Virus record (IMG/VR): IMGVR_UViG_3300046000_004086
Coordinates: 1 to 20,741 of that record
Reading direction: 5' to 3' (one strand)
DNA length: 20,741 nt
Origin: a virus
The position numbers and the translations under genes were made by a program. Positions 9,486-20,741 of the stretch are shown in pieces (position 1 is the first letter of the stretch; every line of letters starts with the position of its first letter). The notes beneath the pieces are model-generated. The model saw only the letters and a list, made by a program, of their open reading frames with translations, did not search any database and had not been told where the DNA came from.

Positions 9486-9493
9486 TATAAATA
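9486..9493 (+). promoter_or_regulatory. T4-type late promoter TATAAATA, rightward
   Basis: An exact TATAAATA lies only four bases before the ATG at 9498. With T4 geometry the transcript would begin at about 9499, so the radical SAM message would be leaderless or would use a slightly shifted start point. Confidence 0.6.
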
Positions 9494-9497
9494 TTGC

Positions 9498-10544
9498 ATG
9501 CTAAAACTGAATGATATACGCAAAGTACATGTGGAATTGACCACTAGATGCAATGCCAGATGCCCCATGTGCATGAGAAACTATCGAGGGTATGATTACA
9601 ACAGTGGGTACCCGTTATGTGAACTCAGTGTTGGGGATTTCAAGAAGATTCTAACTCCTGACGTTTTAGCACAGCTGATTCAACCTGACCCGCCTATTGG
9701 CGATCGTGTGCCAATCATATACGAATTTAGAGGTGTGGCGTTCAATGGAAATCTAGGTGATTTCGCTTCTGCACGTGATGCTGTTGAAATAGTAGAATAC
9801 CTGGTTGAGCACCGGGTACCTGTTATTATCAATACAAACGGATCAGTTCGCAGTCCAGAATGGTGGGCAAGACTGGCTCTACCCAAAGTTACAGTGGGTT
9901 TTGCTATTGATGGCCTAGCAGACACACATCATTTGTATCGCCAAGACACAGATTGGCATAGAATAATTTCACATGCTCAAGCATTAATTGACGCTGGTGG
10001 GCAAGCCATATGGAGATTTGTGCCATTTGATCACAATCGTCATCAGGAACAGGCCTGTAGAGACATGGCCGCACGAATGGGTTTTGCAAAGTTTGAAAAT
10101 ATCTACGATGGAAGAGACCGTACGTCGGTATACAATCGAGATGGCACCTTCAGTCACAAAATTGGTCCAGACCCTGGCAGTCTTACCAATCAAACAGTGC
10201 ATCCTTTTTTGGAAAGCCATATCACTTGGTACGACGCCAAAACAATCACACATCACAAAGATACCCCTGTACTAGACATGCAGTGTCATCACAAACGCAA
10301 TCGAGAAATATACATAGCCGCTGACGGTTCTGTTTATCCCTGTTGCTTTTTGGGATTTTACCCACACACCATGAATCATCCTGGCAACCAAGAATTGGCG
10401 CCGTTGGTAACAGAAAACAATGCATTGGAATATCCTCTTGAACACTGCCTTGAGTGGTTTGATCGTGTGGAACAAACATGGGATGCGGCCAGTATCTCTG
10501 CTGGTAGAACTTATCAGTGTGTGGTAACTTGCAATCAAACATGA
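9498..10544 (+). CDS. Radical SAM protein with SPASM-like C-terminal cysteines
   Basis: The 348-aa protein carries the CxxxCxxC iron-sulfur motif (C18, C22, C25 in TTRCNARCPMC) that binds the 4Fe-4S cluster and SAM. Later cysteines at 263, 282, 283, 317, 341 and 345, with the setting YIAADGSVYPCC, match the SPASM/twitch region that holds auxiliary clusters. Related proteins act on peptides, sugars or small metabolites; the substrate is not visible. The start at 9498 places HVELTTRCNARC at the normal distance from the N-terminus, and the longer in-frame ATG at 9441 would cross the divergent promoter and overlap the neighbour. It opens a four-gene operon with a methyltransferase and two glycosyltransferase-like genes. 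Confidence 0.9.
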   Translation: MLKLNDIRKVHVELTTRCNARCPMCMRNYRGYDYNSGYPLCELSVGDFKKILTPDVLAQLIQPDPPIGDRVPIIYEFRGVAFNGNLGDFASARDAVEIVEYLVEHRVPVIINTNGSVRSPEWWARLALPKVTVGFAIDGLADTHHLYRQDTDWHRIISHAQALIDAGGQAIWRFVPFDHNRHQEQACRDMAARMGFAKFENIYDGRDRTSVYNRDGTFSHKIGPDPGSLTNQTVHPFLESHITWYDAKTITHHKDTPVLDMQCHHKRNREIYIAADGSVYPCCFLGFYPHTMNHPGNQELAPLVTENNALEYPLEHCLEWFDRVEQTWDAASISAGRTYQCVVTCNQT

Positions 10545-11152
10545 ATAAAGATCTACAGCGATTTATGAGTCAGTTTTATCGACAGTCCATACAACCTAAA
10601 AATAGTGATCGTGGATTTAGCAGCTACGACGGCACTCAATATTTGAGAGATAACATAATTAAGTTGTTTGAAAAACACAGTATTCAAAGTGTATTTGATG
10701 CTGGATGCAATGATTGCGGATGGGCAAATGCTCTGGCGCAATATGTTGATTATCATGGCGGCGACATTGCTCCAGGATTAATTGCAGAAGCCTGGGCCAA
10801 TTGGCCAGACCTAGACATTCAAATTCACGACATTACTACAGATCCAATACCCAGTGTGGATGCAGTGTTAATGCGAGATGTTACTATACATCTAAGTCAT
10901 TCTGACAGACACAAAGTAATAAAAAATTGGATCAGCAGCGGAGTACCATGGATGTTAATGACACATTGTTTGGACCATAGTGAAAATATCATGTTTGATG
11001 AATACACAACCCAATTTCCAGTTTATCAAATAAACTGGAGCATAGAGCCGTGGAATTTTCCACAGCCAGTTGACTGCGCAAATGAAATGCCCGGTGGTAA
11101 CGGCCGTGTGTTAGGTCTTTGGCACAGAGATCAAATTATCAATTTGTTATGA
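10541..11152 (+). CDS. Class I SAM-dependent methyltransferase
   Basis: The 203-aa protein has motif I VFDAGCNDCG (51-60), the D-x-G-C type SAM loop, then YHGGDIAPGLI (71-81) with the acidic ribose ligand in GGDIA, and DAVLMRDVTIHLS (107-119) as motif II/post-II, similar to small-molecule and sugar methyltransferases. N-terminal residues 1-35 (FMSQFYRQSI, SDRGFSSYDG) probably cover the substrate site. The ATG overlaps the radical SAM stop as ATGA; an in-frame ATG at 10517 lies within the upstream gene and is rejected. The family is clear, but the acceptor is unknown. Given the neighbours, O-methylation of a sugar is a reasonable inference. Confidence 0.85.
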   Translation: MNKDLQRFMSQFYRQSIQPKNSDRGFSSYDGTQYLRDNIIKLFEKHSIQSVFDAGCNDCGWANALAQYVDYHGGDIAPGLIAEAWANWPDLDIQIHDITTDPIPSVDAVLMRDVTIHLSHSDRHKVIKNWISSGVPWMLMTHCLDHSENIMFDEYTTQFPVYQINWSIEPWNFPQPVDCANEMPGGNGRVLGLWHRDQIINLL

Positions 11153-12018
11153 CTGTAGCAAGAGTATTGTTCCTAGCACGATATCGTGTGCCACATGCGT
11201 GTTTTGCCATGCAGTGGGACCATAATTTACTGGGTATAGATTACACCATAATAGCGTCACCAGTGCCGCAACATGAACTGTGGCCAGTGTTTGAACGCTA
11301 TGGTATTGATACTTCACGGTTAAAATACATGAATGACAGTGTGATATACGAACAGTATCCTGAAGTCAACAACTGGGTGTTCGACAATGACTATCGAGGT
11401 TGGTGGTTGCGACAACAAGCAATCAAACTGGCCTACAGAGACCTGTTGGAAGAAGATGTCATACTCATGCATGACTGTGACACTTTTATGATTGAACCTT
11501 ATAGATGTTGGGATGGTGAACAATTGAATTATCTTGTGATACCTGACACCAAACACGGCAGCTATAATGGGGTATTTGAAAGTATTACTGGATTGCCAGA
11601 AGCCAGCCCGCATTGTTTTGTAACAGAACTAGTGCCTGTACTGCGCACACACTGGCTTGAATTGCGCAAACTGTTGGCTCAACGTTGGCCTGACAAACTG
11701 TGGCTGGACGCTATCATTGACGCTGTTCCTGGCATGCCCACAATACCCCCCTGGGGCACAGGCGAAATAATCAAATGGTTTTCAGAATATGAATTGATAG
11801 GAAACTGGGCAGCATGTTGTGATTCCATCAACTACACTTTTCAGAAACGTTTTGAATACAATAAATTGGAGCTGTTGTCTACATTGAATGCCAGGGAATT
11901 CAATTCAGTTTGCGATGCTGTGCCCGACCTAAGTCAAAGCATGCAACTTGATTGGGACACATTGGACATACCCAACTTTGAACATTATCAACACATGGTA
12001 AAGCAATGTACACAATGA
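11149..12018 (+). CDS. Glycosyltransferase-like protein (DUF6492-like), with DxD-type motif
   Basis: The 289-aa product resembles GT-A-fold glycosyltransferases of the DUF6492 kind. Residues 85-115 hold WWLRQQAIKLAYRDLLEEDVILM followed by HDCDTFMI; the D-x-D (D109-C-D111) fits metal/nucleotide-sugar binding. A later SYNGVFESITGLP and PPWGTGEIIKWFSEYE could form the acceptor side. A homologous arrangement is seen in the minus-strand gene at 14431-15276. The ATG overlaps the methyltransferase stop as ATGA; the longer ATG at 11119 is inside the previous gene. Sugar donor and acceptor unknown. Confidence 0.75.
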   Translation: MTVARVLFLARYRVPHACFAMQWDHNLLGIDYTIIASPVPQHELWPVFERYGIDTSRLKYMNDSVIYEQYPEVNNWVFDNDYRGWWLRQQAIKLAYRDLLEEDVILMHDCDTFMIEPYRCWDGEQLNYLVIPDTKHGSYNGVFESITGLPEASPHCFVTELVPVLRTHWLELRKLLAQRWPDKLWLDAIIDAVPGMPTIPPWGTGEIIKWFSEYELIGNWAACCDSINYTFQKRFEYNKLELLSTLNAREFNSVCDAVPDLSQSMQLDWDTLDIPNFEHYQHMVKQCTQ

Positions 12019-13133
12019 CATATCCAGCAAAGTTCCGATATCCTGTGTATCAGCCTGCATCACAAAGCATTGATGTCACAGCTGACTGGGGTCAGGGTAG
12101 ATTTGAAACTACCAATGATCCTGCGTTAGCACTGAGTCAGCCCTGGTCTGTGGCAGCAGTTCGTGTGCTGTGCAACGAGCCCGGCGTGTTTGATTATGAT
12201 CCAGCATTGGCTGACATGGATCTCAGCCAGTTTGATTTGGTACTGCTAAGTGACATTGAATACTACAGTGTTAAAGAAATACGTGCCTGGATTGGAAAAA
12301 ACAAAATTCAACGTTATGTGTTGGCCCTGGGCGGTCTTGTGCAAGGAGAAGAATTGGATCAGTCCTGCATGGTATATCGCCCTTGGTGGGCTTACAATCT
12401 CTTACGACACAACGAATACCAAGACACTTATCAAGATCAAAAACCCTACATGTTTGAAGCACTGTTAGGAGCACGTAGACCGCACCGTGACTATGTGATG
12501 ATGGCCATGGACAAAACTGCACTGTTGGATCGTAGCATTGTGACCTACAGAGACTGCTTTGAAGGCAAATTGATTGACAGAAACTGTGATCAATTTCAAC
12601 AGACTTTTTATGACACTCCGCTAAAGTGGCCTTACGTGAGTGCAAACTTAGATCCTGCATGGGAAGTCACACACAACATCACTCGCAGTATCAGTCCTTA
12701 TGTGCCTTGGAACATCTATCAACGCAGTCATTACAGCATTGTTTGTGAAACACTGGGCACTGGCACAACATTTTTCTGGAGTGAAAAAGTTACCAAGTGT
12801 TTGCTGGCCAGAAGAATTTTTGTGTTTTTTGGCGCACAAGGATTTCTCGCTCGCATGCGCGAACTGGGGTTTGAAACATTTAGCAGTATCCTTGACGAAA
12901 GCTACGATGAACATCCTGTTGACAGCATAAGATTTGAACGTGCCATGCATCAGGTATTGCAGTTGGCGTATTTTGAAAATCCCAAAGTGCTGTACGAACG
13001 CATACAAACCATATTGGATCACAATCAATCTAGATTGCGCAGTTACCAGATTCAATTTCAAGCCACAATGTCTGATCTACTGCATCAACACATCGAAGGC
13101 GGGCATTGGTTATGGGATGACGAAGTGAGTTGA
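12015..13133 (+). CDS. Glycosyltransferase-like protein (GT10/fucosyltransferase-like C-terminus)
   Basis: The 372-aa protein begins at the ATG at 12015, overlapping the previous stop as ATGA; the ATG three codons upstream (12006) is also possible. The central FEALLGARRPHRDYVM (about 147-162) and the C-terminal HYSIVCET followed by FFWSEKVTKCLLARRIFVFFG (about 239-273) and LARMRELGFETF are recognisable: the E-T-x(n)-S-E-K-x-x-K-x-L-L-A pattern resembles the nucleotide-binding region of GT10 and related GT-B enzymes. The N-terminal half (DLSQFDLVLLSDIEYY, RYVLALGG) fits a first Rossmann-like domain. Last gene of the plus operon; its final 24 bases overlap the convergent SGNH-like gene, so there is no room for a terminator. 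Confidence 0.72.
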   Translation: MTYPAKFRYPVYQPASQSIDVTADWGQGRFETTNDPALALSQPWSVAAVRVLCNEPGVFDYDPALADMDLSQFDLVLLSDIEYYSVKEIRAWIGKNKIQRYVLALGGLVQGEELDQSCMVYRPWWAYNLLRHNEYQDTYQDQKPYMFEALLGARRPHRDYVMMAMDKTALLDRSIVTYRDCFEGKLIDRNCDQFQQTFYDTPLKWPYVSANLDPAWEVTHNITRSISPYVPWNIYQRSHYSIVCETLGTGTTFFWSEKVTKCLLARRIFVFFGAQGFLARMRELGFETFSSILDESYDEHPVDSIRFERAMHQVLQLAYFENPKVLYERIQTILDHNQSRLRSYQIQFQATMSDLLHQHIEGGHWLWDDEVS

Positions 13134-13925
13134 AATGTGCTGATAGAAGTTTTCAGCAATTTTTTCCTGTCCTTCGGGGCCAGAATGATATCCAGGATCG
13201 TCTCCTGAAAATGGGTAACTGCCGCATATGGCTTGAGGACTTTTAGTTGTGTCTAGCTGTATGAAGTGATCAGGGATAAGTTTTGGAAACGCATCACGCC
13301 ATAGGTTATGATTGTCAGGATCAAATGGCCACAGCAAGTTGGGCAACACCAAGAACTGGATGTCATCTAGGAACATAGAGATCACACCTTCGCGAATCAT
13401 CCACTCATCCTGTTGCTTTTTCCAAGCATTGTCGTAGATTGAATCAATCCAGTGCCGTATGCCGTTCTGCGCTTGTTTGGTAATGCGGCCCTGTCTGTAG
13501 GGATGATCAAAGTTTTCTGCAAGAGTAAAAATAGTTTCACAAATCATGTTTGACGGTTCCCGACCATAGTTTACATTGCGGATGCCATCTTGTCTATTGT
13601 AGCCATTGCCCAGTTTTCTATTTTGTAAGTGACGCTCTAGTGGAGGGTTTTCTCCGGCACTGGGTGCTTGAGTCCAGTCGTAGGGCACTGAATTGGCAGG
13701 TATTTCCATACGATCCCAAAAGGTAGGACCAATCACAGCAAAGTCTGGACGCTGTCTGCGTATTTCATCTATCTGTATGCGTATGCCGCCGTTTGAACAG
13801 CCTTGGCGTGCCAGGTTGACCAATTCCCAGCCACCTAGTTTTTCAGCCAGACGTTCACTCCAAGCAGTGCCTGGCAAAGTTTGACTTACGGCCGAAAACG
13901 AGCAGCCTGCTACCATTAATTTCAT
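13110..13925 (-). CDS. SGNH/GDSL hydrolase-like protein
   Basis: The 271-aa protein shows SGNH blocks: MVAGCSFSA (4-12) as block I with candidate nucleophile Ser9 (a G-C-S variant of the usual G-D-S), NLARQGCSNGGI (37-48) supplying the block II Gly and block III Asn, FAVIGPTFWDRME (62-74) as the strand before the oxyanion area, and DPGYHSGPEGQ (243-253) as block V with His247. In the standard family the last acid and base are D-x-x-H; here D243 and H247 are four apart. Such enzymes remove or add acyl groups on sugars and lipids. Its ATG overlaps the deacetylase stop as ATGA. Ester hydrolysis or acyl transfer on a glycan is inferred from context. Confidence 0.73.
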   Translation of the reverse strand: MKLMVAGCSFSAVSQTLPGTAWSERLAEKLGGWELVNLARQGCSNGGIRIQIDEIRRQRPDFAVIGPTFWDRMEIPANSVPYDWTQAPSAGENPPLERHLQNRKLGNGYNRQDGIRNVNYGREPSNMICETIFTLAENFDHPYRQGRITKQAQNGIRHWIDSIYDNAWKKQQDEWMIREGVISMFLDDIQFLVLPNLLWPFDPDNHNLWRDAFPKLIPDHFIQLDTTKSPQAICGSYPFSGDDPGYHSGPEGQEKIAENFYQHISTHFVIP

Positions 13926-14434
13926 AGTGTTTCCTTGTAACTGTTTTGATGTTCTTTGCTGTGAAAACTAGCAATAATTTCTTTGTGCATGGGCAATTCA
14001 TCTAGTGTGTATGTGCCGGACGGAATTGTATATGTAACTCCTTCACCAGGTCGTGCAAATGTCACCAGTCGAGGATGCCACTGCACTGCACGATGTACCA
14101 GCACATGATGTATGTGTCCGTAGTCACCCAGTTCGTCATGTGTGAGCACTAGATCATAGTCACGAGCCAACTGCCAACAGGCCCGTTCAGCGGATTCTTC
14201 AGGCCAGCGTGTGAACACCTTTTGTTCGTTGTCATGCCAGTGATCTTCAAATCCCAAGAACACACATTCAATGCCACGCTGTTTCCAAAATGTTGAAAGT
14301 TCCGCACCACGTGGATCTTGCGCAGTGTAAGTTAGGTACCCAATGGTCCAGTTGTGCTCGGGATGTGCATGAATGTAACTGTAGCCAAATATCACACAGT
14401 CATCTGGATGCGCTACCAAACACAATGCGTTCAT
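13922..14434 (-). CDS. PIG-L/LmbE-family N-acetyl-sugar deacetylase
   Basis: The 170-aa protein has the zinc motif AHPDD (8-12) directly after the first strand and a second motif GHIHH (106-110) in THDELGDYGHIHHVLVHRAV. In PIG-L/LmbE/MshB enzymes the AHPDD His and second Asp plus the last His of G-H-x-x-H bind zinc, and the first Asp of the pair is the general base. All are kept here (H9, D11, D12, H110). At about 170 aa it is shorter than most members (200-300 aa), a compact core version. These enzymes remove the acetyl group from N-acetylglucosamine-type sugars on lipids, thiols or antibiotics. It sits between a glycosyltransferase-like and an SGNH-like gene, joined to both by four-base overlaps. 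Confidence 0.88.
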   Translation of the reverse strand: MNALCLVAHPDDCVIFGYSYIHAHPEHNWTIGYLTYTAQDPRGAELSTFWKQRGIECVFLGFEDHWHDNEQKVFTRWPEESAERACWQLARDYDLVLTHDELGDYGHIHHVLVHRAVQWHPRLVTFARPGEGVTYTIPSGTYTLDELPMHKEIIASFHSKEHQNSYKETL

Positions 14435-15276
14435 TCCAGATCCCAGGCCACACTTTGGCCGCGATCAATCAGCAGCATCTTAAATGCAGTTTTTTGTTCT
14501 GGTAACATTTTTGACCAAGCATTTCGATGAATACTTACTGTAAGAGTATTTTTATCACGCATGAGTTCAAGTTTCTTTTGAATCAGATCAACTTCGCTGT
14601 GACAAACATTAACTATTGTTCCAATTGAATTGTGTTCAGTATAAAAATGATCTAGGGTGCCATATTTGTATTGGCAGAATCCCGAGTACAGCATGAATTC
14701 TGTCAGCATGCCTTGACGCTGAAACCATGTGGGAAAACTTTCACGTGTTTTGATTGTGGTATCAGCAATCATAAAGCGTACTGTGTCATTGTGAAAAAAG
14801 AACGGCACACCACCTGGACCAGCTTGTTTGGTCATGTTGATATCAAACAACTGATCCACAATGTCTTTGCTGGGTTTAAACACATCAAACACATTCATTT
14901 GTCCCACAGTAAGCTGACCATTCTCGTTGACCAATTTGGATATTTCCAAGGGTCTAACAAATATAGTCTTGGCGTCCAAGACCATGGTATAAACATTGTA
15001 ACTTATAGATGCAGTAAGAAGTTTTAGAGCCTGTTGACTTACCCAGCCGTTTTCTACCCAGGTACTGCTGAATGCTGTGCGTGGCACCACCAAGACTGAA
15101 CTTGCTAGATCTCCCCACCATGCAGGATCAATTTTTTCCGCTAGGGTTTCGTAATCATTGAGAACCACATAGATATTTCTTATACCTATGTTGCGACAAT
15201 GGTTGTGTATGCTTTGTGCCTGAATTTTAAGGATCGGCAATTCCTGTTCAAATACTACTGTGCAGATATCAATCAT
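14431..15276 (-). CDS. Glycosyltransferase-like protein (DUF6492-like), altered DxD
   Basis: The 281-aa protein resembles the plus-strand gene at 11149-12018 in layout: NIYVVLND (34-41), then NGWVSQQALKLLTASISYN (76-94) and VYTMVLDAKTIFVRPL (95-110). In GT-A enzymes the D-x-D or D-x-N sits at that point; here it reads L-D-A-K, so one acidic residue is replaced by Lys and metal binding may differ. QMNVFDVF (125-132) and GGVPFFFHNDT (154-164) may form the rest of the active site. It is first in a three-gene minus-strand set with the deacetylase and the SGNH-like protein. Identification is by pattern and parallel with its neighbour, so moderately sure. Confidence 0.68.
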   Translation of the reverse strand: MIDICTVVFEQELPILKIQAQSIHNHCRNIGIRNIYVVLNDYETLAEKIDPAWWGDLASSVLVVPRTAFSSTWVENGWVSQQALKLLTASISYNVYTMVLDAKTIFVRPLEISKLVNENGQLTVGQMNVFDVFKPSKDIVDQLFDINMTKQAGPGGVPFFFHNDTVRFMIADTTIKTRESFPTWFQRQGMLTEFMLYSGFCQYKYGTLDHFYTEHNSIGTIVNVCHSEVDLIQKKLELMRDKNTLTVSIHRNAWSKMLPEQKTAFKMLLIDRGQSVAWDLE

Positions 15277-15309: not shown

Positions 15310-15666
15310 TTATTTTCCGGCGGCAAACAATGCAGCGCCGCGATTGAAACTGTCGCTCCAGCTTGCGGGTTGTCGGCCACTGCGCTTTTGACTCCAGGCA
15401 TATCCTGCTCTGTGACCAGAGCAGTCTTTGGTACATTGTGAACCCAGAAAACTTAATTCACGCAGTTGCTCGCGTGTCCACTTGTCAGGAATTGTGCCGT
15501 GTTTTTTCACAAACTCGTCGTGCAATTGTTTGCCGGTAATGCCGTAGTCACGAGCAATGGTCTGCATCATGTGATCAATTGCACTGTAGCTCTTGGGATC
15601 ATCTAGATCTTTCTCCAAGTCTTCTACTGCACCTTCTTTCAACTGTGCAAACTCGTGTGCTCTCAT
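15310..15666 (-). CDS. Conserved phage protein with CxxxC-type C-terminal module
   Basis: The 118-aa protein opens MRAHEFAQLKEG, similar to the MRANEFVTENF opening of the gene at 17157-17750. Residues 27-62 (SAIDHMMQTIARDYGITG, then LHDEFVKKHGTIPDKW) look like a small helical domain. Residues 74-118 (SQCTKDCSGHRAGYAWSQ, then SWSDSFNRGAALFAAGK) form a second unit with a C-x-x-x-C-x-x-H cluster that could bind metal. I recall both units as recurring separately in marine phage proteins of unknown role. The ATG overlaps the stop of the 495-aa gene as ATGA. Confidence 0.78.
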   Translation of the reverse strand: MRAHEFAQLKEGAVEDLEKDLDDPKSYSAIDHMMQTIARDYGITGKQLHDEFVKKHGTIPDKWTREQLRELSFLGSQCTKDCSGHRAGYAWSQKRSGRQPASWSDSFNRGAALFAAGK

Positions 15667-17150
15667 TTTTTAGGTTGTACTGCGGTTGGTACATTCCGGT
15701 ACACACGCTTGTTGGGATCATACACAGTTTTCAACGGACCCAAGCCAGCTAGTTTCTTAACTCTGGCAACCATGGCTTGATAGTCGTCACCGTAGTCGGC
15801 TTCTTTTTCTTTGGGGGCTGTTTCATTTAATCGTGCCAACTGTTGTTTGATACTGTTAATTTGATTTTGAATTCCTTTTTGTTGGGTCCAAACTCTGTAA
15901 TCATCACTGTATTCAAAAGAAGGGTCATATTGTTTTTCTAATTCTTGTAGCTTTGCCTGAAGAGTTGCTTGTTCGTCTGACATATTTTGTTCTTCCAATT
16001 TACCAGAATTGTGTGCTTTCCATGCAGTGGCGTAAGCAATGCCTTTTTCTTTGTCGGTTATTTTGCCGTCTTTGGCATAGGATTTTTTAATGTGCCGGAC
16101 CATGCGTTCTGCTTTGTCGCCAGGCGGTGCTTCTTCTGCTACCCCTTCGTTCATTTGCTTCAGCAGTTCTTGTGCTTTTTCAACGCTAATCAAGAACCTA
16201 CCAAAGCGATCAGGATTAGCGGCTTTTTGTAGATATTCTTTGCTGAATCCTTGTGGAGCTTCTGCTTTTGCAGGAGCTGTGTCAGTTGCTTGTTGCGTTG
16301 CAATAGGCTTGCCGGTCAAGCGGTTGATGCCAGGATCATCGCCGGGCATGACTCTAGCACTGGCACCACCTGCGCCCATGGCCATAGTTCCTGCTAACGC
16401 AGCAGCACCTAATGCACTTTTCCATCCTTCGTCAAGCTCGCCTTCCGCCACACCTTGTGATTCAAAATTATCTATATTTCTAGAAACTCTACGCTCACTG
16501 CCTTGAGAAGGGAATCCTGAACTTTGTGATTGCGGCGCAGGTCTTCCTGGGGCATACTTAGATAACTTTTCAGTGGCTTTTTCTCTAGCAATAGTCATCC
16601 ACATTTGTTGTTGTCTGCGATCAATAGGCTGGCCACGTGTGGCAACTATTTGTTCATAGATTGCTCGTGCCATTTCCTCTATGTCTTTATTGTGTTGCAC
16701 ACGAGGATCATCTTGACGCATGTTTTGGAATTCTCTTGAAACATCAACGGGACGCGATTGTGCCATTGCAGATCCAGCCGCACCTGCCACAGCCGCCGCA
16801 CCCAAGCCTTTTAAGAATCCTCTACGGTCTATCTCTTCTAATGAGCCTTCCGCCACACCTTTTTTCTTGTTTAACACTTTGTTTAGAATCTTTTCACCAT
16901 GTTTGGCTACTTTTTCAGGTGTGGTTGCTTTGGCAGTGTATTCTTTCTTGCCGGCGTCTGAATCGTTGCTGCCATCACGGCCTGGAGGAGTTTGTGATTT
17001 GTCCATTTCATTGACTGATTCAGCAGGCACACAGTTGTTCACACGAGTGCCGCCCTTCATTTTGGTCTTGGGATTGCCAATCTTTTTGCCGGTCCAGCAT
17101 TTGGGGTCCAGGCGCACTTTTTCTTCAGTAAATAGGTCGTTGAGATTCAT
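15663..17150 (-). CDS. Mosaic phage protein with three GVAE modules and an internal Tat-like segment
   Basis: This 495-aa protein appears to be a string of short units. Residues 11-42 (RLDPKCWTGKKIG to RVNNCVP) hold two cysteines. Residues 47-95 are charged and disordered. GVAEG at 98-102 leads into IDRRGFLKGLGAAAVAGAAG and AMA-Q (128-131), a Tat-signal look-alike but internal. Residues 145-205 are helical. A second GVAEG at 233-237 leads into LDEGWKSALGAAALAGTMAM and an Ala/Gly stretch to 265. A third, GVAEE (336-340), is followed by APPGDKAERMVRHIKKSYAK and a helical unit to about 385. Residues 390-445 are coiled-coil-like. The last 45 residues form another basic unit. Function unknown; a virion or cell-envelope role is a guess. 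It follows the acetyltransferase gene by six bases. Confidence 0.8.
   Translation of the reverse strand: MNLNDLFTEEKVRLDPKCWTGKKIGNPKTKMKGGTRVNNCVPAESVNEMDKSQTPPGRDGSNDSDAGKKEYTAKATTPEKVAKHGEKILNKVLNKKKGVAEGSLEEIDRRGFLKGLGAAAVAGAAGSAMAQSRPVDVSREFQNMRQDDPRVQHNKDIEEMARAIYEQIVATRGQPIDRRQQQMWMTIAREKATEKLSKYAPGRPAPQSQSSGFPSQGSERRVSRNIDNFESQGVAEGELDEGWKSALGAAALAGTMAMGAGGASARVMPGDDPGINRLTGKPIATQQATDTAPAKAEAPQGFSKEYLQKAANPDRFGRFLISVEKAQELLKQMNEGVAEEAPPGDKAERMVRHIKKSYAKDGKITDKEKGIAYATAWKAHNSGKLEEQNMSDEQATLQAKLQELEKQYDPSFEYSDDYRVWTQQKGIQNQINSIKQQLARLNETAPKEKEADYGDDYQAMVARVKKLAGLGPLKTVYDPNKRVYRNVPTAVQPKK
16356..16454 (-). repeat. GVAEG/Ala-rich module, copy 2 (495-aa protein, residues 233-265)
   Basis: The unit reads GVAEG, LDEGWKSALGAA, then an Ala/Gly/Met-rich hydrophobic stretch. 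It is closest to the copy in the lysin-type gene (18509-18598): both have L-[DE]-E-x-W-K-S-A-L and A-M-A-M-G-A. Confidence 0.75.
16440..16456 (-). repeat. 17-base exact repeat, copy A
   Basis: GCCTTCCGCCACACCTT on the plus strand recurs exactly at 16845-16861. It encodes the GVAEG core with one preceding codon part. Identity at the third codon positions suggests recent or maintained relation of the two modules at DNA level. Confidence 0.85.
16758..16859 (-). repeat. GVAEG/Ala-rich module, copy 1, Tat-signal look-alike
   Basis: Residues 98-131 of the 495-aa protein read GVAEG, then DRRGFLKG, an Ala/Gly/Val hydrophobic core and A-M-A before Gln. Twin Arg at 109-110, F-L-K, a core of about 15 residues and an A-x-A cleavage-like site are all features of Tat signals, but the segment starts 97 residues into the protein. 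The 17-base repeat copy B is at 16845-16861. Confidence 0.75.
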
Positions 17151-17156
17151 GATAGT

Positions 17157-17750
17157 TTATTTATTGCGTTTGGCTTTAGCACGTCCGGCCTTCATGTTGG
17201 CCATCCAGTGAGCTAATTGCCCTTTGCGACCGCCTTGTTTGGCCACTTTACGCAGGGTGCCAACTGACGCTTTGGTGGGCACACCGTGTCGCTTTGAATC
17301 GCCTTTGTCCTGCGGATTACGCCCATCAGCAAAGTTTTCGTTTAAGCCCGTTAATTCTTGTTCACCCTGTGGTGTCAAGAACCAAAAACCATCCCCAGGA
17401 GTAACAATTGACCCAGCATTTTCCAAGCTATCGTAAACATTTTGTTGTGCATCGGTAATACCGCGGATGTCTTGTTGAAAATCCAACCCGTGATTGTTGG
17501 CAACATCAATTGCTTTCATCAACAGCAATTTACCGTAACCTTGTCCTTGCCAACGTGATTCAACTTCTGCTTCATTGTTGACATCATCTGTATCAGCGCC
17601 TCGTACAAAATTAAAATGTCCTACGTATTTTCCATGCACTGCAAGTGTTATTTGAAAACTGTGTGTGTACCCATCAGGTGTAGTAACTGTAAATTTTACA
17701 GGATTCCGGCCATCAGCAAAGTTTTCTGTTACAAATTCATTTGCTCTCAT
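17157..17750 (-). CDS. GNAT-type acetyltransferase with basic C-terminal module
   Basis: The 197-aa protein has a GNAT core at about 18-125. Strands ITLAVHGKYVGHFNF lead to AEVESRWQGQGYGKLLLMKA (61-80), which contains the acetyl-CoA pyrophosphate loop Q68-G-Q-G-Y-G73 and the following helix. The end of the core (VYDSLENAGSIVTPGDGFWFL) fits the last helix and strand. GNAT enzymes pass an acetyl group from acetyl-CoA to an amine; the substrate is unknown. The core is bracketed by two copies of ENFADGRNP (9-17 and 138-146). The second begins a separate basic unit (150-197: KRHGVPTKASVGTLRKVA, RKGQLAHWMANMKAGR) that looks able to bind nucleic acid. The ATG overlaps the lysin-type gene stop as ATGA. 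Confidence 0.8.
   Translation of the reverse strand: MRANEFVTENFADGRNPVKFTVTTPDGYTHSFQITLAVHGKYVGHFNFVRGADTDDVNNEAEVESRWQGQGYGKLLLMKAIDVANNHGLDFQQDIRGITDAQQNVYDSLENAGSIVTPGDGFWFLTPQGEQELTGLNENFADGRNPQDKGDSKRHGVPTKASVGTLRKVAKQGGRKGQLAHWMANMKAGRAKAKRNK
17158..17165 (-). promoter_or_regulatory. Possible late-promoter-like octamer AATAAATA
   Basis: On the minus strand this is AATAAATA, one mismatch from TATAAATA, overlapping the acetyltransferase stop codon and seven bases before the ATG of the 495-aa gene. The placement resembles the two octamers near 9466-9493, but a chance match is quite possible. Confidence 0.25.
17313..17339 (-). repeat. ENFADGRNP repeat, copy 2
   Basis: This encodes ENFADGRNP at residues 138-146 of the acetyltransferase. 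It shares a 17-base exact core, CCATCAGCAAAGTTTTC (plus strand), with copy 1 at 17700-17726. Confidence 0.85.
17700..17726 (-). repeat. ENFADGRNP repeat, copy 1
   Basis: This encodes ENFADGRNP at residues 9-17 of the acetyltransferase, just before the GNAT core. The two copies bracket the core at about 360 bases distance. Confidence 0.85.
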
Positions 17751-20741
17751 AGCACCGCCATATATTCTTTAAATTTATTGTGTCGCTGTTGCACCACATG
17801 TGTTGGTTCACCAGCATTGATGGCCTTTACAACTTCAATTGTATTGTTGAAGTTCTTCACATTGGGTCTAACTTGATTTTTCCAGAACCATAATGCAATT
17901 TGAGCACCCACATCCAGTTTGCTGGCCAACTCAGGATTTTTTACCAATCTGTCATCGCCAAATATTTGCTTGCTTGCTCGAGTGTAATTGTCTCGTCCGG
18001 TAAGTTGAATAAACCCACGCCCTTTAAATAGTTCGCCATCACCTTTGACTTTGTTGCCCAGTTGTTTGGCCAGTTTGGGTTTTTCATACTTGGCAAATCT
18101 TTGTTTACTGCCCACTTCCTTCATCTTGGAAAAGTCCCAGCTTTCATGTCTGGTCTGTGCCATGAACTGTGCCAGTTCTACACCTCGAAGTCCTGCGGCC
18201 TTGGCAGCAGTTTGAAGCGCGGCCTCGGCGTCACTGTTCATGCTTAACAATGTGACTTCGCTATCTTGTGCGGGTGAAACTTTTGATGTGGCTGGCTGTG
18301 CAACTTTAGTAGGCAGCGGTTTCACTGTGGATTTTGCCGCAGCAGGTTTTGAATAGTCGGGCACTAGAACCTTTTGTCCTATTTCCAATTTGGTATTACG
18401 ATCCATCTTGTTTAGTTTGAATATCTCTATTGGATTCACATTATTTTGTCTTGCTATGCTGTACACTGTGTCACCTGGTTCAACTGCCTGGCGAACTATT
18501 TCAGGAACTTTTGCACTTGCACCCATGGCCATTGCACCGGCCATTGCACCTGTTGCCAATGCAGATTTCCAGTCTTCTTCTAATTCTGCCACACCTTCTG
18601 TCATGATGGGATACACTTCAAAGCCTTCGCCTGACACACCCCGGCCATTGTTACGCAGCCATTGTGCAGCCACTCTGTTGGCATCTGATTGATTGTTGCC
18701 CACGCCTGAGAATCTGTAAACTTCTTCACCGTTTACTAACACCTTCCAAGCACCAGAGAACGTGCCGGGTGTGGCTCGTTGTTGTGCCAAGTCTGTTGTG
18801 CTTCCAGGGTAGATTACCTCTATATCTGGTTCAATGTCAATAATACCACTTTGTTCAGCATCTGATCTAGAACCTTCTCTAGTTCTTACTACAAAGTCGC
18901 TGGGATTGTAACCGGTTAGGCTTAACCACAGTCTTGCTTCTGTCTCTGCGGCTGCGCGGTTTGTTTGCTGGGGATTAAAGTAAACTTGGTTATTGCTTCT
19001 ACTAGCCAATTCCCAAGGTCCAGGACCAGTTGGTCTCAAAGGGTTCACATCTGTTTGGCCTGCATCTGCAGGCCGATCCCATTGTTCAGTGTCCACCACC
19101 ATGTAGTCAGCAGCAACTAAATTGTTTCTAGCAGCCCAGGCTTGGAGAACATATCTACCTTGCGCTTGCTCTGCTGGATTACCCATGTTGAATCTAAACT
19201 GATAGTCAGGCGTGACACCGCGTGATTGGCCATACAAGGCTGGATCTGAGCGTGGCACAATAGCATAGCGACCATTAGGATCATTAGGTCTGCCGGGTGG
19301 AGCAGGAGGGCTGGTGAAGGCACTGGCGGTGTCGTCACTGTCAGTAGATCGAACACTAAAAACCGCTGCGGCGTCTTGTGCGCTCATTCCGTGTTGACCA
19401 TGATTGACATAATCTTGCAACCTGGTCAACTGATCTGCTGTATTGCGAGGCGAGAATTCAGTATCTGGCACAGCCTCACCTGTTTGTTTGTTATAGAGTT
19501 CATGTGTTCCTGAACCAGACTTTTCTTCGTATGGACGCACAGGTTCGGCCACAATGGATTGTCGGGTGTTAGCCCAAGACGGATAGCCATCATCGCCCAA
19601 GGCTTTTTCAATGGCTTCTTCCTTACTTGACGCAACAACTTCTACACTGGCATAACTATTGCCAGGATTGGAAACGTTCCACCACATCTTTTCACCGCTT
19701 GTTTTGCCACGTTTTTCTTTGCGTTGCAGTTGTGCTTGTTTCACAAAACTACGCAAGGCTGCCCGGGGAATCTTGCCAGCCACATAGTCAGCAAAGTATT
19801 TGATGGTGTCTGACCCTTTTTGGTCTTGAGTCAATAGTTTGTACAGTTTCTTTTGGTATTCTTCTCGGTAGGCTTCAGGGTTGAGTGCCGCACTCATGGC
19901 CACTGTGAAACGCAACAGGGTGTTTTCAATCTTGTCAAAGTTGTCATCCAGCCAATCGCCGCCTGGTGAGCGGAATTCAATATGTCCGTCTTTGGTGTTG
20001 ATTGATGTGTATTTGTCTGTGTAACCTCCGTGAATGGCTTTGGAAGCCAGTTCGCCCATTTGGCCTTTCATCTTGTCCAACAATTGCTGTGCTTCTTCGG
20101 GTCGTTGTCGCACACGATCACGCACCTTGCCTAGTGCAGATTTGGCGTAGGTATTTGAACTACGTCCAAATTGTTTGAGCACATACTCGTCGCCTAACAA
20201 CAGGGCCAGTTTCACAAAGTCCAGCTTGTCCAAGCTGTATTCAGGCACAGAAATGTTGATGTGCAGGCCAGTTGAACTGTTGGTATAAACGCCCATGCGT
20301 CCAGCCCAGGTCTTTACAGCATTCAAATCTTTCAAGAGCTCGTCAATAGGCATGGGCGGGCTCACAAACTCCAGGCCTTCGTCGCCGTCATTGTCGCCTT
20401 CTAAACTGCCGTCTGGTTCCACTATATAAAACTGATTGTTGGGTCCAGGTCTGTCGCCTGACTGATGGTATCTTGTGTTCACTCGCACTTCACGGCCCAC
20501 AGCCTGACTGAATTCATCTGCTACCTGATCTGCATCAATCTCACCGGTGTTTATCATAGTCCAGTACGGCCAACTTATCTCGTAGGCGTTTTCAACGCCA
20601 CTCATGACATCAAGGTCTTCGGCGTCTAGCCAGTCGCTCTCGTCGTAATTGTCTTGATTTTCTTCCCGCCATTCATCAAACGCCTGTTGATAATAATCAC
20701 TAGAAGGATCAGCGTCTACATTGGCTGCAAATTCCTTCTCT
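17747..20741 (-). CDS. Amidoligase-like / LysM / GH19 lysin fusion protein, 5' end outside window
   Basis: The frame stays open from the right edge (at least 998 codons), with no in-frame start in the first 45 codons before Met at 20605, so the gene begins outside the window. Numbering from that Met: residues 1-250 resemble the amidoligase family (ATP-dependent COOH-NH2 ligase, glutamine-synthetase-like fold), with GLEFVSPPMP (77-86), STGLHINISV (111-120) and HIEFRSPGGDW (208-218). Residues 305-360, 464-506, 538-577 and 618-667 look like small diverged alpha/beta repeats. A GVAE/Ala-rich module lies at 670-699. LysM is at about 708-750 (PGDTVYSIARQNNVNPIEIF). A GH19 chitinase/lysozyme-type domain fills 795-952, with AQTRHES (candidate Glu821 and Glu830) and GRGFIQLTGRDNY (862-874). 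It probably binds and cuts peptidoglycan; the ligase-like part is unexplained. Confidence 0.85.
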   Translation of the reverse strand, partial: EKEFAANVDADPSSDYYQQAFDEWREENQDNYDESDWLDAEDLDVMSGVENAYEISWPYWTMINTGEIDADQVADEFSQAVGREVRVNTRYHQSGDRPGPNNQFYIVEPDGSLEGDNDGDEGLEFVSPPMPIDELLKDLNAVKTWAGRMGVYTNSSTGLHINISVPEYSLDKLDFVKLALLLGDEYVLKQFGRSSNTYAKSALGKVRDRVRQRPEEAQQLLDKMKGQMGELASKAIHGGYTDKYTSINTKDGHIEFRSPGGDWLDDNFDKIENTLLRFTVAMSAALNPEAYREEYQKKLYKLLTQDQKGSDTIKYFADYVAGKIPRAALRSFVKQAQLQRKEKRGKTSGEKMWWNVSNPGNSYASVEVVASSKEEAIEKALGDDGYPSWANTRQSIVAEPVRPYEEKSGSGTHELYNKQTGEAVPDTEFSPRNTADQLTRLQDYVNHGQHGMSAQDAAAVFSVRSTDSDDTASAFTSPPAPPGRPNDPNGRYAIVPRSDPALYGQSRGVTPDYQFRFNMGNPAEQAQGRYVLQAWAARNNLVAADYMVVDTEQWDRPADAGQTDVNPLRPTGPGPWELASRSNNQVYFNPQQTNRAAAETEARLWLSLTGYNPSDFVVRTREGSRSDAEQSGIIDIEPDIEVIYPGSTTDLAQQRATPGTFSGAWKVLVNGEEVYRFSGVGNNQSDANRVAAQWLRNNGRGVSGEGFEVYPIMTEGVAELEEDWKSALATGAMAGAMAMGASAKVPEIVRQAVEPGDTVYSIARQNNVNPIEIFKLNKMDRNTKLEIGQKVLVPDYSKPAAAKSTVKPLPTKVAQPATSKVSPAQDSEVTLLSMNSDAEAALQTAAKAAGLRGVELAQFMAQTRHESWDFSKMKEVGSKQRFAKYEKPKLAKQLGNKVKGDGELFKGRGFIQLTGRDNYTRASKQIFGDDRLVKNPELASKLDVGAQIALWFWKNQVRPNVKNFNNTIEVVKAINAGEPTHVVQQRHNKFKEYMAVL
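18509..18598 (-). repeat. GVAE/Ala-rich module, copy in the lysin-type protein
   Basis: Residues 670-699 (from Met 20605) read EGVAELEEDWKSALATGAM, then A-G-A-M-A-M-G-A-S-A-K. The unit sits directly between the repeat region and LysM, and parallels the module at 16356-16454 in the neighbouring gene. Confidence 0.75.
18605..19216 (-). repeat. Three diverged tandem protein repeats
   Basis: Residues 464-506, 538-577 and 618-667 each show a strand (YQFRFNMG, NQVYFNPQ, WKVLVNGEEVYRF), a helix with A-x(n)-A-x-x-W or L-W (AQGRYVLQAWAARNN, AAAETEARLWLSLTG, SDANRVAAQWLRNNG) and a closing strand (DYMVVDT, DFVVRTR, GFEVYPI). Similarity is by pattern only. Confidence 0.55.

Follow-up and report, generated by a model that had tools for sequence, protein, structure and literature searches.

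The stretch analyzed here (hereafter the window) is a 20.7-kb fragment of the IMG/VR virus record IMGVR_UViG_3300046000_004086, of which it covers positions 1 to 20,741. Between positions 9498 and 15276 it carries a cassette of seven open reading frames (ORFs) arranged in two converging arms, and all seven are present with the coordinates and strands given by a first-pass annotation that relied on the letters and ORF translations. We find that the cassette genes form a real unit when their sequences are followed through related phages, and we consider below whether they encode a single pathway that builds and edits an amino-sugar glycan. The members, with the basis for each assignment, are as follows.

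9498..10544, plus strand: RSAM, a radical S-adenosylmethionine (SAM)/SPASM-twitch protein of 348 amino acids (Pfam)
10541..11152, plus strand: MT, a class I SAM methyltransferase, an optional member (Pfam, phrog)
11149..12018, plus strand: GTa, a GT-A-type glycosyltransferase (GT)-like protein, DUF6492-related, with an invariant DxD (PF20102 matches of relatives)
12006..13133, with the start at 12006 or 12015, plus strand: GTb, a GT-B-fold glycosyltransferase (AlphaFold model, PDB matches, family alignment)
13110..13925, minus strand: SGNH, a predicted SGNH-fold hydrolase- or acyltransferase-like protein with a GCSFS motif (PDB matches of a model, invariant residues)
13922..14434, minus strand: PIG-L, a PIG-L family zinc deacetylase with AHPDD and GHxHH motifs (Pfam, invariant motif)
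14431..15276, minus strand: GTc, a DUF6492 glycosyltransferase-like protein with DAK replacing DxD (Pfam)

The genes are tightly packed. Four of the five co-directional junctions are 4-base overlaps, in keeping with the earlier remark that nearly every junction has this form. The GTa–GTb junction is a 13-base overlap if translation of GTb begins at the first ATG (12006); initiation at the ATG at 12015 would instead give a 4-base ATGA overlap. The two arms converge, and their 3′ ends overlap by 24 bases.

At least 60 contigs share this arrangement (47 once dereplicated), which is more than chance. Contigs selected by RSAM and those selected by PIG-L form overlapping sets, and co-occurrence is hence given separately for contigs selected by RSAM alone. 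With at least 6.5 kb available downstream, SGNH, PIG-L, and GTc are all present in 40 of 41 such contigs, and RSAM is found in 70 of the 72 PIG-L-selected contigs that have room for it. Gene order and convergent orientation are constant across relatives. The first-pass annotation had reasoned that separate accessory genes would vary independently between relatives, and no such variation is seen for these four. Of 64 contigs, 52 contain both GTa and GTb; one other has a GTb-like gene with no GTa within range, and the remainder have neither. MT is present in 12 of the 64, and in a 92%-identical sister (L003/L005) it has been deleted internally, with window positions 10572 to 11130 gone and the first and last MT codons remaining, so the gene is dispensable. 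In the relative L156, GTc and PIG-L are fused into one 451-residue protein, which suggests that the two enzymes probably work together. Judged by these gene distributions, the core is RSAM, SGNH, PIG-L, and GTc, the GTa–GTb pair is usual, and MT is optional. The proposal that the seven genes belong together is supported for the co-varying core and, with the one partial case, for GTa and GTb, but MT is not a fixed member.

Other arrangements are also found. In L160, a small and otherwise different contig, SGNH adjoins PIG-L, and no RSAM is present in the 7.3 kb available. A second, different radical SAM-like protein is encoded directly 3′ of RSAM in L053 (11044–11922) and L158 (11343–12248), the remainder of the cassette being missing from L053. 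In L110, L135, L145, L156, and L157, the minus-strand arm includes an additional SGNH-like protein, which is shorter (about 240 amino acids), has a GCSYMEAY motif, and is encoded between SGNH and RSAM; these are mostly relatives that lack GTa and GTb.

Catalytic motifs and residues are invariant across the cassette families. RSAM matches PF04055 (Radical_SAM) with an expectation value (E) of 6e-7 (30.2 bits, cut-off 29.5) and PF13186 (SPASM) with E = 8e-4 (20.1 bits, just under the cut-off of 21.5), and NCBIfam twitch/SPASM models match all members of its family with scores far under their equivalog cut-offs. The family alignment retains CNARCPMC, C263, C282, and C283 without exception, and the protein has the CxxxCxxC motif, the radical SAM domain, and the C-terminal cysteine-rich SPASM/twitch region of this family. 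Its closest PDB relatives are an anaerobic sulfatase-maturating enzyme and ChlB. MT matches PF13649 (Methyltransf_25; E = 5e-6) and phrog_3382 (E = 1e-24). PIG-L matches PF02585 (E = 1.4e-10, 42.2 bits, cut-off 28.2) and has the zinc-binding residues of its family, wherein H9, D11, D12, H107, H109, and H110 are invariant. SGNH has no convincing Pfam match. However, the top eight PDB matches of its structural model, whose predicted local distance difference test (pLDDT) score is 69.7, are all SGNH hydrolases (best E = 1.7e-3); S9, N45, and H247 are invariant in the alignment, with the aspartate and histidine spaced as D-PGY-H rather than DxxH.

The three glycosyltransferase-like proteins differ in how they were assigned. 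GTc matches PF20102 (DUF6492) with E = 3e-9 (36.7 bits, cut-off 22.9), and it carries DAK in 62 of 63 members and DSK in the remaining one in place of the canonical GT-A DxD. GTa taken alone is a weak DUF6492 match (E = 0.011); 26 of 29 relatives match PF20102 (best 7e-6), and every family member has the DxD. Profile comparison finds that GTa and GTc have only a weak motif in common (probability 11%), and we do not regard them as clear paralogs. GTb has no Pfam match, and its AlphaFold model (pLDDT 93.8) retrieves mostly GT-B-fold enzymes from PDB (best E = 1.9e-3), on which basis it is predicted to have a GT-B fold, as expected of a member of that class. Neither the GTb nor the SGNH model has a PDB match under E 0.001, and both fold calls depend on agreement among the top matches. 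The annotation had also proposed that the set builds, methylates, deacetylates, and acyl-edits a sugar. Building and deacetylation fit the families found, methylation would be optional, and acyl editing by the SGNH protein would follow from its fold only. By hydropathy, the cassette proteins have no membrane segments or signal peptides.

The ratio of nonsynonymous to synonymous substitution (dN/dS) relative to a sister phage is 0.02 to 0.12, a range indicating that the cassette genes are under purifying selection. Among phages with 97 to 99% identical DNA polymerases, SGNH is about 89% identical, whereas GTc, GTa, and GTb fall to about 50, 49, and 41%, respectively. Other phages of similar polymerase identity have near-identical cassettes (90 to 98% for the window versus L005). 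The divergence of GTa and that of GTb are tightly correlated (r = 0.83). The simplest reading of these comparisons is that alleles are exchanged in a fixed slot.

Two short elements precede the arms.

9486..9493, plus strand: TATAAATA, a T4-late-promoter-like octamer that ends 4 bases before the RSAM start codon
15277..15288, minus strand: ATACATAACTGC, an element directly before the GTc start codon, a possible promoter

The T4 late promoter is TATAAATA. In 49 of 51 distinct relatives, this octamer lies 3 to 7 bases upstream of the RSAM start codon. Across these loci, no more than 34 of 1180 predicted gene starts carry a copy at a distance of 20 bases or less; the window holds two copies versus 0.41 expected. 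Structural genes of the jumbo phage CBB are reported to be preceded by an ATAAATA motif, which is also predicted in GAP32 (PMC5259590). At the GTc start, ATA[C/T]ATA is present in 39 of 59 distinct relatives and TAAGTA in another 13, and 11 of these 13 TAAGTA copies stand after the T-run of a terminator-like hairpin. Such a hairpin precedes the AT-rich element of GTc in most of a second lineage group, described below. From these placements we infer promoter roles, late timing, and near-leaderless transcripts.

For the family B DNA polymerase encoded in the window, the closest cultivated counterparts are in two jumbo phages, Sinorhizobium phage Phosso (50% identity) and Agrobacterium phage Atu_ph07 (47%). 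The IMG/VR records that contain relatives of the cassette reach 364 kb, and a T4-type Gp23 capsid protein is encoded in 8 of the 11 long records (E about 1e-98). Together, these relationships identify the window as part of a T4-superfamily jumbo phage. When cultivated phages were searched, SGNH and GTc gave no match, RSAM gave one weak match, and PIG-L gave four at 29%. A scan of a genome collection with the RSAM profile returned three remote matches and essentially no close cellular relatives, and PDB sequence searches with PIG-L, GTa, and GTc returned nothing at the thresholds used. The window also encodes a DsbA-like protein and, at 17747–20605, a single ORF in which amidoligase-like, LysM, and GH19 chitinase-like endolysin domains are joined.

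The flanks of the cassette differ between relatives. A sulfotransferase (1–395) and an acetyltransferase (17157–17750) had been put forward as enzymes that could add further decorations, and we leave both out of the unit because the flanks vary. The former is cut by the window edge and falls under the Pfam cut-off (E = 0.031), and the latter has an N-terminus resembling T4 capsid-targeting sequences; neither proposal finds support. Such N-termini (MRANEFVTE and MNLNDLFTEE types) occur on many unrelated proteins, including those encoded at 15310–15666, 15663–17150, and 17157–17750 of the window and by upstream genes in relatives. The two patterns are found in 51 and 24 of 1808 proteins; the expectation from internal windows is about 3.6 and 0. 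By their N-termini, these proteins, the acetyltransferase included, may be internal head proteins.

Nucleotide-sugar epimerase/dehydratase-family proteins are encoded in 11 of 11 long records, several about 11 to 17 kb from the cassette. In one (G001), the gene lies about 17 kb away and adjoins a DegT-family aminotransferase-like gene. In about ten distinct loci of the second lineage group, GTc is preceded by a gene just upstream that encodes a Gram-negative porin (E about 1e-36) or a Gcw_chp protein. The closest plasmid-borne homologs of the porin are mostly from Burkholderiales, an affinity that suggests, but does not prove, Burkholderiales-type hosts for this group. The porin/Gcw_chp genes encode signal-peptide-like N-termini (L145 7975–9096, L146 7980–9149, L149 7941–9092, L156 8415–9134, L157 8415–9149, and others), and 9 of 17 records have a Porin_4 match above the cut-off.

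Our preferred reading, to which we assign a probability of just under one half, is that the island encodes a single cytosolic, probably late pathway of the phage, in which an amino-sugar glycan is built and edited and the product is most likely destined for the host envelope. GTc would move an N-acetylhexosamine onto an acceptor, and PIG-L would then strip the N-acetyl group to expose a free amine. The L156 fusion supports joint action in these two proposed first steps. The SGNH enzyme would take off or put on an acyl group, and the radical SAM/SPASM enzyme would oxidize or rearrange the sugar or the acceptor. The GTa–GTb pair would lengthen the chain by using strain-specific sugars, MT, if present, would cap it with a methyl group, and delivery of the product to the cell envelope would alter the surface of the infected cell. 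This destination is favored because of the porin neighbors and the nucleotide-sugar genes. A bolder version, which we hold to be doubtful, is that the pathway is phage-specific and radical-SAM-dependent and makes a previously undescribed amino-sugar conjugate, the fixed four-enzyme core and exchangeable GT alleles serving lytic jumbo phages as a serotype-like cartridge.

Several observations weigh against the envelope pathway. Porin and GTc are separated by a terminator-like hairpin in most cases, and they are therefore probably not co-transcribed. In the lineage of the window itself, porins are encoded elsewhere in the genome. Dps, encoded just outside the cassette, likewise varies (73% identity), and allele exchange is therefore not restricted to glycosyltransferases. 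GTc is without the canonical DxD, confidence in the SGNH model is moderate, and every substrate, like the acceptor, is putative. Late timing, moreover, would suit the modification of virions no less than a change of the envelope.

Indeed, the same glycan pathway might instead decorate virion proteins (capsid, tail, or fibers). This is our second choice, somewhat unlikely though close to the envelope reading, and it is favored because TATAAATA resembles a late promoter before RSAM. All cassette enzymes look cytosolic, as suits the site of virion assembly, and in the lineage of the window one flank holds genes with capsid-targeting-like N-termini. The Pelagibacter phage Mosig also has a sugar-modification-like cluster near a tail-fiber gene. 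However, the major capsid gene is not adjacent to the cassette in long relatives, the second group has its cassette near outer-membrane protein genes, and the unit includes no acceptor protein. Improbable, in our estimate, is a small-molecule conjugate (aminoglycoside-like or bacillithiol/mycothiol-like) or a peptide modified by the radical SAM/SPASM enzyme. In bacillithiol (BshA–BshB) and mycothiol (MshA–MshB) synthesis, glycosyl transfer is followed by PIG-L N-deacetylation, such that a GT and PIG-L make up the first half of the route, and the closest solved relatives of RSAM include an enzyme of the SPASM class that acts on proteins. Yet the unit shows neither a BshC/MshC-type cysteine ligase, for which whole relatives were not searched, nor a precursor-peptide gene, and glycosyltransferases as the most variable members are a better fit to surface diversity.

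The first-pass annotation also named a modified nucleotide as a target, and glycosylation of modified phage DNA (hydroxymethyl-pyrimidine or 7-deazaguanine) by the cassette is in our view quite improbable. T4 beta-glucosyltransferase is among the weak GT-B matches of the GTb model, and one long relative has 7-deazaguanine-pathway-like genes no more than about 30 kb away from the cassette. In long relatives (L258 1179–10087, and L260), a GTP cyclohydrolase I gene (E = 3e-39) and genes judged by eye to be QueE- and QueD-like are found close to B12-binding radical SAM and nucleotide-sugar genes, which suggests a predicted 7-deazaguanine pathway. However, no member of the thymidylate synthase/deoxycytidine monophosphate (dCMP) hydroxymethylase family was found in the 11 long records (209 to 364 kb), some of which are fragments, in a search whose control was positive in 9 of 14 genomes. 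T4-style DNA glucosylation as the principal role is rejected on this missing prerequisite, and DNA glucosylation as it is known involves neither PIG-L nor SGNH. That the genes are unrelated accessory genes, neighbors by chance, would explain why some relatives are without MT and the GTa–GTb pair. We judge it very improbable, given that the core four are kept as a set in constant order and orientation, a co-occurrence that already contradicts it, and given the correlated divergence and the GTc–PIG-L fusion.

Sugar genes of large lytic phages are usually catalogued singly, with their joint role unexplained. Here many uncultivated phages share one delimited unit: its core is fixed, its glycosyltransferases vary, a fusion links two of its steps, and it has likely regulatory elements. 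It thus offers a concrete pathway to rebuild and test. Phage gene sets that modify sugars are known, and the literature searched, which covered few subscription journals, has no paper describing this gene set, core, or layout, in agreement with the earlier statement that the combination was not recognized. If virions are decorated, the cassette would represent phage-made complex glycans involving radical SAM chemistry.

Among known systems, the BshA–BshB and MshA–MshB pairs share with the cassette the sequence of GT and PIG-L steps, a likeness supported by the fusion of GTc and PIG-L, although GTc is DUF6492-like and not GT4. In Xanthomonas phage PhiXhv-12 (PV764601), a PIG-L of 29% identity adjoins genes for a glutamine-fructose-6-phosphate aminotransferase and a glycoside transferase; that set lies on one strand only, belongs to another lineage, and has no radical SAM or SGNH gene annotated. 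A surface-modification-like cluster in Pelagibacter phage Mosig EXVC030M likewise consists of two converging arms; it includes genes for MoaA-like radical SAM proteins, methyltransferases, and a sugar aminotransferase and has a tail-fiber gene nearby, but its gene set is different and its RSAM match is only 21% identical over 53%. An O-antigen-modifying phage, which bears on the envelope reading, is reported in PMC8787464. The gtrABC and O-antigen acetylase seroconversion modules are likewise phage-borne, centered on glycosyltransferases, and alter a host surface sugar. They belong to temperate phages and employ a membrane flippase and membrane glycosyltransferases, whereas the cassette belongs to a jumbo T4-like phage and combines cytosolic GTs with radical SAM, PIG-L, and SGNH proteins; family scans of the seven proteins revealed no gtrA flippase, gtrB bactoprenol GT, or gtrC membrane GT. 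If it is the host envelope that is changed, the cassette would be a lytic-phage counterpart of seroconversion.

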